Shown piece by piece: positions 36,324 through 41,377 of a stretch of DNA of 64,000 bases (within the stretch, counting starts at the first letter, position 1; the number at the start of each line of letters is the position of its first letter). Made by a program: the position numbers and the translations under genes. The notes under the pieces are model-generated. The model saw only the letters and a program-made list of their open reading frames with translations, was not told where the DNA came from and made no database searches. Where the stretch lies: contig WGNI01000001.1 in the NCBI GenBank assembly GCA_016124655.1, positions 434,001 through 498,000 on the forward strand, given 5' to 3'. Source of the DNA: Alphaproteobacteria bacterium. Its GTDB lineage: Bacteria; Pseudomonadota; Alphaproteobacteria; Caulobacterales; Aquidulcibacteraceae.

Positions 36324-36397
36324 GGCCTCGTGGCGGAGTGGTGACGCAGCGGACTGCAAATCCGTGTACCCCGGTTCGATTCCGGGCGAGGCCTCCA
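36324..36397 (+). tRNA. tRNA-Cys(GCA)
   Basis: A 74-nt cloverleaf with encoded CCA. Acceptor stem GGCCTCG pairs with CGAGGCC; anticodon GCA at 36356-36358 in the loop CTGCAAA; T arm with GTTCGATTCC. Confidence 0.97.
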
Positions 36398-36536: not shown

Positions 36537-37028
36537 ATGTTGAAATTCAAACGTTTCCGGCGGCAGGCGTTGCGTCGAGGTGACCTCAGCGTCGCCGCCG
36601 CGGGGTTTCTGCTCTTGATGGCGGTTGGGCTTCCGGCGCTTGGCGAGGCGCCCAGCCCAGATCTTGGCGCGCAGGCTGGGATCGCTGTCCGCGTCATCGA
36701 TGGCGACACGGTCGAGGTCCGCGGCACGGGGGAGCGCGTCCGTCTCGCCAATATCGACGCGCCTGAGGCCGGCGACGGCGCGCGCTGCTCGGCTGAGCGG
36801 GCCGCCGCAGCGCGGGCGACAGCGGCGTTGGAAGCGTTCACGGCGCGGGGCGAGGTCACGATTCGGCCGACCGGCAGAATCGACCGCTACGGGCGAGTCG
36901 TCGGGTATCTCATGGTTGACGGCGCGGACGCCGGCCAAGCGCTCATGGCGCAGCGCTTGGCGCGTCCATGGCGCGGACGGCGCGCGCCCTGGTGCGGCGC
37001 CGACGGGACGCTTCTTGGCATTGAATAG
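36537..37028 (+). CDS. Secreted staphylococcal nuclease-like (SNase) protein
   Basis: 163 residues. An N-terminal signal or anchor helix (AAAGFLLLMAVGLPAL) is followed by an SNase/thermonuclease domain: RVIDGDTVEVRG, RLANIDAPEAG, and RIDRYGRVVGYL, which contain the OB-fold metal site and catalytic Arg/Asp/Glu positions; it ends RPWRGRRAPWC. Likely periplasmic or secreted nuclease, or a smaller SNase-like protein without activity. Confidence 0.83.
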   Translation: MLKFKRFRRQALRRGDLSVAAAGFLLLMAVGLPALGEAPSPDLGAQAGIAVRVIDGDTVEVRGTGERVRLANIDAPEAGDGARCSAERAAAARATAALEAFTARGEVTIRPTGRIDRYGRVVGYLMVDGADAGQALMAQRLARPWRGRRAPWCGADGTLLGIE

Positions 37029-37206
37029 TCTGCGTGAGGAGCTTCTTTAGCTCTGAAATTGCTGGCTTTATTGACTTCAAAGCGTCTTGGCGGCGCGACC
37101 AAACGCCGACGCGCGCATGCCGCCAATCGGCGTCAGCTGCCCTTGCCAACGGCCATCCCGGCTGCATTCACGACCCGCACATTTTTCCCAACAACCCATT
37201 TACCCG

Positions 37207-37222
37207 TTAACCCGGCGTTTAC
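37207..37222 (+). promoter_or_regulatory. CtrA-like box
   Basis: TTAA, a 7-nt spacer, then TTTAC. The CtrA consensus is TTAA-N7-TTAAC, so there is one mismatch. It lies about 63 nt upstream of the terminator stem. CtrA control is plausible in a Caulobacter relative but is not proven by one site. Confidence 0.45.
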
Positions 37223-37224
37223 AG

Positions 37225-37314
37225 GTTATCGGCATATTCACTCCTGTCTTCCCTTGGAGACACCCCACCATACCCAACGCCTTCGAGGGGACCGAAAGGT
37301 CCCCTCCTTTCTTT
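37225..37314 (+). ncRNA. Candidate small RNA between CtrA-like box and terminator
   Basis: A transcript started after the CtrA-like box would be about 70-90 nt and end at the perfect terminator. No ORF in it has an AUG. Its 3' end contains CCTCCTTTCT (37303-37312), identical to the anti-Shine-Dalgarno tail of alphaproteobacterial 16S rRNA. Existence of the RNA is inferred, the 5' end unknown. Confidence 0.35.
37285..37314 (+). terminator. Rho-independent terminator
   Basis: A perfect 9-bp stem (GAGGGGACC / GGTCCCCTC), a GAAA tetraloop and the tail CTTTCTTT. No protein gene ends close upstream on the + strand except the nuclease 257 nt before, so it may end a small RNA or a long 3' UTR. Confidence 0.85.
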
Positions 37315-37399
37315 GTGCGCGGCGTTGAAGCGGCGCGCGGATAGGGTCTTCCGCCGGCGCGGTGAAGTTGGTAGGACAAGCGCCCGCCGATGGCGGCGT

Positions 37400-37474
37400 T
37401 CCTCGGTAGCTCAGCGGTAGAGCAACCGGCTGTTAACCGGTTGGTCGTAGGTTCGAATCCTACCCGGGGAGCCA
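37400..37474 (+). tRNA. tRNA-Asn(GTT)
   Basis: A 75-nt cloverleaf with encoded CCA. Acceptor stem TCCTCGG pairs with CCGGGGA (one G-T); anticodon GTT at 37432-37434 in the loop CTGTTAA; T arm GTTCGAATCC. Confidence 0.97.
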
Positions 37475-37480
37475 GCGGCT

Positions 37481-38134: not shown

Positions 38135-39091
38135 TCACCGACCGCCCGGCGCTGAGGCCGCTTGCGTGCGCGCGACATCCTGGCGACGCATGTAATCGAT
38201 GATGTGGTTTGCGTCCGATTCTGTCAGCCCAAGATTGGGCATCGGGACGTTGCGGTAGCGGCGCATGAGCGCCAGCGCGGTCGGGTCGCGTTCGGCGATC
38301 ATGCGATCGGGCTCGCGCAGCCAGCGATTGAGCCAAGCGTGCGGGCGCGCATCGGCGACGCCGCGCAGGTCCGGTCCCAAGCGGTCGCCGCCGCCAATGG
38401 TGTGACAGGAGCTGCAGCGCGTGCGGAAGAGATAGGCGCCTCTTGAGTTGTCGGCCGCAGGCGTGACCTGGGTATAGGATTGGCGGCGGTTCGAGGGGCT
38501 TGCAGCGTGATTGTTCAGGTTCTCGGCAAGAATGTTGGCGAGCAATTGGGGGTCTTCGTAGGAGGAGCGGCGGATCCATTGCCCGGTGCGCTCATTGCCC
38601 ATGATGAAGCGCGTGTCGTGTTCGCGGAGATTGCGCGGGTCCGGCGGGCGAATGCCGAGCCGGCGCTGCAGGAGCTCCACATCCGCGCGTGAGCCGGTGA
38701 GAAAGGTCCATCCCGGGCCGACATCAAAGAGACGCATGAAGCGGCGCAGCGTCACCGGCGTGTCATTCTCGGAATCCACCGATATCGAATAGAAAAAGAT
38801 ATCGCGCCCCACCCGGTCGCCCAGCGCCTCATGCACGCGGCGCAATTGCGCGGTGTCCAGCGGGCAGAGATCCGTGCAGGTGGTGTACACGAAATTGATC
38901 GCAACGACCTTGCCGCGGATCATGTGGTCGTAAAAGCGAACCGTGCGGCCATTGTGGTCGGTCAGCGCCACATTGGGAAAATAATCCGCCCGCCAGCGCA
39001 GCTGCTGCGCCTGCGCGCGGTCGCTCAAGGAGACTTGAGCCAACACAAGCAGCAGCGCGGCGACGCCGATTGCGAACACTGCACGCAGCAT
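38135..39091 (-). CDS. SCO1/SenC-like protein fused to a c-type cytochrome domain
   Basis: 318 residues. Signal or anchor helix (LLLVLAQVSL), then a SCO thioredoxin-like domain with the copper motif CTDLC (Cys about 72 and 76) and the partner His in REHDTRF (about 158). A linker follows, then a cytochrome c domain with CSSCH (about 226-230) and the axial Met in NVPMPNLG (about 284). SCO proteins handle copper for oxidases; the fused heme domain would give it electron transfer. It starts 12 nt after the multicopper oxidase gene, implying a maturation or redox-partner role for that enzyme. Located in the periplasm. Confidence 0.9.
   Translation of the reverse strand: MLRAVFAIGVAALLLVLAQVSLSDRAQAQQLRWRADYFPNVALTDHNGRTVRFYDHMIRGKVVAINFVYTTCTDLCPLDTAQLRRVHEALGDRVGRDIFFYSISVDSENDTPVTLRRFMRLFDVGPGWTFLTGSRADVELLQRRLGIRPPDPRNLREHDTRFIMGNERTGQWIRRSSYEDPQLLANILAENLNNHAASPSNRRQSYTQVTPAADNSRGAYLFRTRCSSCHTIGGGDRLGPDLRGVADARPHAWLNRWLREPDRMIAERDPTALALMRRYRNVPMPNLGLTESDANHIIDYMRRQDVARTQAASAPGGR

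Positions 39092-39103: not shown

Positions 39104-41377
<2,274 letters not shown>

Follow-up and report, generated by a model that had tools for sequence, protein, structure and literature searches.

A predicted small RNA gene with an upstream CtrA box, conserved across the Caulobacterales

Does the intergenic stretch at positions 37029-37399 of the window (the whole 64,000-nucleotide stretch of DNA analysed here) hold a small RNA gene controlled by CtrA, and which parts of such an RNA would matter? The source genome (G000), a draft of 2.94 Mb that is 85% complete, carries ctrA (82% identity over 201 aa) and also gcrA. The stretch lies between a SNase-family gene directly before it (36537-37028, from Pfam and the ORF list) and tRNA-Asn (GTT; 37400-37474, plus strand). 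The first-pass annotation had placed a small RNA gene here, in a region said to lack protein genes, with a CtrA-like box, a perfect terminator and an anti-Shine-Dalgarno 3′ end. The stretch between the two flanking genes is indeed free of protein genes. Comparison with relatives upheld the small RNA gene behind its CtrA box but not the anti-Shine-Dalgarno 3′ end. A further tRNA gene, tRNA-Cys (GCA; 36324-36397, plus strand), is a frequent upstream neighbour in relatives (within 400 nt in 27/71 homologues) and lies about 850 nt off here. On the far side of tRNA-Asn, Pfam finds a SCO1/SenC domain and, after it, a cytochrome c domain in a minus-strand ORF (38135-39091), and the minus-strand ORF beside it (39104-41377) resembles a multicopper oxidase by eye.

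A DNA search with positions 37029-37480 in 61 genomes recovered the tRNA genes in nearly all of them, and in many a second block, query positions 217-290, corresponding to the candidate RNA. A covariance model built from 14 rows (R1) matched 164/200 genomes of the order (E≤0.01) and, at the same threshold, 39/385 genomes of a class-wide draw; 16 of these 39 matches reached 3e-9 or better, whereas the other 23 are weaker and for the most part resemble chance hits. A second model built from 79 rows (R2) matched 186/200 genomes sampled from the order (E≤0.001), five of them between 1e-5 and 6e-4, and gave no match at that threshold in the remaining 14; these order counts hold partly by construction, because the models share rows with the searched genomes. 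Outside this sample, R2 matched 18/385 genomes of the class draw (E≤1e-5), four from the same order and the other 14 spread over six further families, and 8/200 of a phylum draw (E≤0.001), five from the same order (one at only 6e-4) and three marginal matches from outside it (1.8e-4 to 9e-4). No known family accounts for the element: against Rfam 15 only tRNAs matched at the gathering threshold, and raising E to 5 added only matches outside the element. The predicted small RNA gene is thus conserved across Caulobacterales, and its family is absent from Rfam 15. Conservation in sister species had been set in advance as one of the points on which the proposal could fall; the element proved to be order-wide, and the box is conserved with it.

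Within the genus Caulobacter the element was found in 61/75 genomes (E≤0.05). It is present in Caulobacter vibrioides DSM 9893 (contig NZ_PJRR01000022.1, 96,022 bases), where two tRNA-Asn genes follow it, and at other loci of the C. vibrioides family (f3; L109, L134, L135 and L137) tRNA-Asn is inverted and the RNA kept. For the source genome itself the model gives a single full-score copy, followed by a match with an E value of 0.36. Some relatives gave two model matches (G034, G088). One of these second matches (L092, G034:C22:64346-64413) is clearly a diverged copy and has no tRNA in its vicinity; another (L104, G088:C1:2499190-2499265) was not picked up by the motif script.

The 79 rows were chosen by hand, one or few per genus: 16 came from the DNA search, 15 from the class draw, and 48 from around R1 matches in the order or, for some, around tRNA-Asn hits. 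Near-identical relatives from the family of the source genome were left out (such as L003, L005-L007, L009, L011, L012 and L030), as were L023 (the same place as L136), L103, cut contigs or loci without an element beside the tRNA (L013, L016, L018-L020) and weak class matches without a convincing element (L075-L088). Also omitted were L104, L115 and L141, in which the motif script found no element, and L135, which has no model match and an element visible by eye. Promoter counts use 78 of the 79 rows (L062 lacks 60 nt upstream), fold and neighbour counts likewise 78 (L140 was dropped, its C-run not being found by the expression), and tail counts the 77 rows with a locatable tail. Since the rows are related, none of the homologue counts represents independent events.

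The predicted RNA is about 70 nt long (37246-37315, plus strand) and is recognised by both covariance models, its own match spanning 37246-37311 (E 2.7e-21). Its +1, at or beside the G of GTCTTC, was inferred from the spacing of the box and the -10, and its 3′ end from the T tail. Across the aligned block, a hairpin of the type GTCTTC...GAAGAC or GGAGAC is followed by ACCCCACCATACCC or a sequence near it and then by a terminator that drifts. The 5′ hairpin (GUCUUC-CCUU-GGAGAC, 37246-37261) forms in 78/78 folded homologues, and 98.7% of its cells are paired over 78 distinct rows, compared with 38-66% for slid controls, in an alignment that was fitted to this hairpin and so favours it in pair counts. 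Both sides have changed together at 3/6 pairs (G-C to A-U in six sequences), giving 8 double-change cells against 1.3 in shuffles.

Behind the hairpin lies a C-rich stretch, ACCCCACCAUACCCAAC (37262-37278), which row conservation and folds mark as the proposed seed. The heptamer CCCACCA occurs in 79/79 rows and CCCACCAT in 77/79, and the stretch is mostly unpaired in 75/78 homologue folds. Its C-run is CCC rather than CCCC in 16/78 homologues. The conserved parts are, on this comparison, the 5′ hairpin and the C-rich stretch, neither of which had been singled out by the first-pass annotation.

The perfect terminator stem that had been described is present at 37285-37306, with nine pairs, a GAAA loop and a T-rich tail; stem and the following CTTTCTTTG together make up the predicted intrinsic terminator (37285-37315). 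Taken alone this evidence is weak, a 2-kb scan finding three such sites against 2.0 ± 1.6 in shuffles. The sequence of the stem varies freely among relatives, and a helix ends no more than 12 nt from the trimmed 3′ end in 77/78 homologue folds. The fold of 37236-37316 beats all 200 shuffles (z -3.93). At one locus (L017:1159-1280) a terminator-like stem recurs in tandem after the element, in about three copies, with weak model matches there. As to coding capacity, no plausible ORF was found, in line with what had been noted: the two listed frames (89 and 85 codons, TTG starts) cross the terminator and tail. A coding gene was judged unlikely, loop and C-run lengths differing by single bases among homologues and an ATG occurring within the first 45 nt in only 8/79 rows.

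Upstream of the predicted RNA, the CtrA-like box that had been reported is present as TTAACCCGGCGTTTA (37207-37221, plus strand), a TTAA-N7-TTAA motif with one mismatch lying at -39 to -25 if 37246 is taken as +1. It is the sole site in the window with at most one mismatch, where 1.22 are expected. Such a box in a single sequence is therefore at chance level, and its significance comes from conservation: of 78 homologues, 77 carry TTAA-N7-TTAA in the 60 nt upstream with no more than one mismatch, 45 of them exact, and the remaining row (L002) has a box with two mismatches. By comparison, 200 dinucleotide shuffles averaged 5.4/78 (largest 11), and flanking 60-nt windows held the motif in 4/889 cases. 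The DNA query contained the box, whereas R1 and R2 begin at the hairpin and lack it. The box was nevertheless present in 51/51 usable rows found by the models, as in 15/16 rows from the DNA search and 11/11 of mixed origin.

Position points the same way. The box starts at -38, -39 or -40 in 75/78 homologues, and upstream columns more than 50% conserved comprise only TTAA-N7-TTAA with a C after each half, an A at -11 (81%) and a T at -7 (68%). The box position together with the conserved -11 A and -7 T is why the hairpin's first base was taken as +1. In the source genome a -10-like hexamer, CATATT (37233-37238, plus strand), can be read from the sequence, shifted upstream by one base like the box. 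In the excerpted account of C. crescentus promoters, the 5′ base of a full CtrA motif lies near -35 (at -39 in ctrA P2), and promoters with a full motif peak in predivisional cells (PMC4287350); the placement found here matches that of the activating boxes so described. Control of the predicted RNA by CtrA is well supported by comparison.

What would such an RNA do? A capping hairpin followed by an exposed C-rich stretch that hardly varies suggests the anatomy of a pairing small RNA, and we consider the element to be probably an antisense RNA that CtrA activates and that acts in trans, its C-rich seed pairing with G-rich sites in mRNAs. The RNA gene and its control by CtrA are put forward because of the comparison, and the pairing with mRNA is inferred. 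Phosphorylated CtrA would bind the box over the -35 region and activate an ordinary -10 promoter, a step for which position and conservation argue strongly. The short hairpin would cap the 5′ end of the RNA and leave the single-stranded C-rich stretch exposed, and the U-rich tail of the predicted intrinsic terminator would offer the usual foot for a chaperone (Hfq). The C-rich stretch would then pair in trans with G-rich sites (GGGG or GGUGGG type) that lie at ribosome-binding sites or close to them. In predivisional cells, where CtrA is active, such pairing may reduce the translation of a group of mRNAs.

Searches for partners were made in 37 genomes. Perfect complements of a 13-nt part of the C-rich stretch numbered 21, of which 20 were the gene itself; the only perfect complement of the stretch of its own family outside the RNA gene lies at G004:C11:20808-20820. 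When one mismatch was allowed the sites numbered 97, compared with 86 for the control with the sequence reversed. Leaders of ctrA and gcrA were assessed separately by energy estimates, leader starts being found at 27/30 ctrA and 22/30 gcrA loci. Pairing was no better than shuffles for ctrA (mean z -0.14; 0/27 below -2) or, on average, for gcrA (mean z -0.12, on mononucleotide rather than dinucleotide shuffles), a single gcrA leader of the 22, from G050 of the genus Caulobacter, falling below -2 (z -3.57). Over the 27 ctrA and 22 gcrA leaders there was no consistent pairing signal to mark either gene as a target.

Four other explanations were weighed, two of them concerned with the ends and surroundings of the RNA. 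The idea of a decoy, in which the CCUCCUUUCU tail mimics the end of 16S rRNA to titrate Shine-Dalgarno sites, takes up the observation, confirmed here, that the 3′ tail copies that end: the exact 10-mer CCTCCTTTCT lies at 37303-37312, once in the window against 0.01 expected (and three times in the whole draft genome). Half of this 10-mer is paired within the terminator stem, much as had been cautioned, and it recurs in just 1/77 homologues, the terminator arm changing freely. CCTCC at the arm and tail is likewise found in 1/77, and even a broader window that includes the linker has it in only 8/78. An anti-Shine-Dalgarno tail is thereby ruled out as a conserved feature, and we find a decoy role barely credible. 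Alternatively, the element could be a leader or transcription-control element of tRNA-Asn, CtrA setting the synthesis of this tRNA and the RNA being a by-product, as might be suggested by a same-strand tRNA-Asn no more than 350 nt downstream in 63/78 homologues and farther downstream in 8. Yet a terminator stands between the two, the tRNA lies on the opposite strand in 3/78 and was not seen in the DNA inspected around 4/78, the gap between RNA and tRNA can be little more than 100 nt or can exceed 600 nt, and a leader would not require conservation of the C-rich stretch; we regard this as highly improbable. Because tRNA-Asn is flipped or missing in some homologues and a terminator intervenes, and because box, -10 and terminator are all its own, the predicted small RNA was judged to be a unit separate from tRNA-Asn.

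The other two concern the partner of the C-rich stretch. If the RNA controlled ctrA and gcrA themselves, its CCCC pairing with GGGG, it would follow the example of CcnA, which in the excerpted account has a promoter with a CtrA box and an exposed CCCC like those seen here (PMC8959179), and the G050 gcrA leader does beat its shuffles. The leaders taken together do not, however, and the C-run is only CCC in the 16 homologues mentioned above, which makes this very unlikely. A protein might instead bind CCCACCA by the hairpin and be sequestered or guided, with no role for mRNA pairing. That CCCACCA is invariant in every row, more so than a seed with many targets requires, and that no mRNA complement stands out would both fit, but we know of no protein with this specificity, and we hold such a role to be unlikely. 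The stretch is moreover unpaired and C-rich like those of pairing small RNAs, namely the loops of CcnA and GsrN as the excerpted reports describe them (PMC8959179, PMC5869019). An antisense RNA acting on mRNAs through this stretch is the reading carried forward here.

CtrA is a master cell-cycle regulator of alphaproteobacteria, and its known outputs are mostly protein genes. Retention of both the CtrA box and the C-rich stretch across the order would mean that selection has acted for very long on a post-transcriptional output of CtrA. Whether this amounts to an RNA arm of the CtrA regulon that is both ancient and order-wide, with a near-invariant seed and a full CtrA box, repressing many mRNAs post-transcriptionally at a set time of the cell cycle across Caulobacterales and some other families, we judge to be evenly balanced. 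As C. vibrioides carries the element, the proposal is testable at once in a standard laboratory strain.

Part of the answer may already be in the C. crescentus catalogue, which as excerpted lists 199 ncRNAs, rRNA and tRNA included, six non-coding RNAs having a CtrA motif and a CtrA ChIP signal (PMC4287350). The predicted RNA could be one of these six, though it need not be. CCNA_R0025, described in part of another report as having one full and two half CtrA boxes (PMC5988900), would fit as the counterpart of the C. vibrioides copy, but so might others. No description of the predicted RNA was found in the open-licence literature searched. If it is one of the catalogued ncRNAs, its transcript is known, but its conservation and role are not described in that literature.

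How does the predicted RNA compare with small RNAs already known in this class? The Cuckoo/CcsR RNAs of Rhodobacterales are small, with C-rich motifs, a conserved CCUCC-type loop and a linked DUF1127 gene. They had been named as a parallel to the present RNA. Kinship is not supported: the CCUCC-type motif is not conserved in it (CCTCC at arm and tail in 1/77 homologues), and the locus differs as far as examined. The gene upstream of the present RNA is of the SNase family. The characteristic 10-mer of the alphaR8 family is, as we take it, different from anything in the predicted RNA. This family (SisA-D, MmgR) comprises alphaproteobacterial small RNAs that also occur in Caulobacterales, and is described in the excerpted report as often present in several copies per genome, unlike the one full-score copy found here (PMC12559287).

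EcpR1 is a conserved trans-acting RNA of Rhizobiales that acts on cell-cycle genes; it is stress-induced, has the loop motif UCCGCCGCAUCU and lies downstream of divK-pleD, according to the part of its description used here (PMC4414408). Neither this motif nor the divK-pleD locus was found in the predicted RNA, sequence and neighbours being different. By place, promoter or motif, as far as their partial descriptions go, none of CcnA, GsrN, EcpR1 and SisA-D is the predicted RNA.

GsrN offers a likeness in its exposed, C-rich 5′ loop, and the mRNA pairing that GsrN carries out is what we propose for the predicted RNA (PMC5869019). It is driven by SigT, usually lies near general stress genes (although not in C. 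crescentus), and has BLAST homologues limited to Caulobacteraceae, as the excerpts state (PMC5869019), whereas the predicted RNA has a CtrA box and a wider spread. No SigT promoter (GGAAC-N16-CGTT) appeared among the conserved upstream columns of the 78 homologues, which are those of the CtrA box, the -11 A and the -7 T. CcnA (CCNA_R0094) of C. crescentus is, in the excerpted account, a 182-nt RNA located in the replication origin (PMC8959179). The predicted RNA, at about 70 nt and beside tRNA-Asn, is set apart from it by that description, its neighbours being SNase and tRNA genes (tRNA-Cys and tRNA-Asn in relatives). Common to both are a CtrA box and a CCCC stretch.
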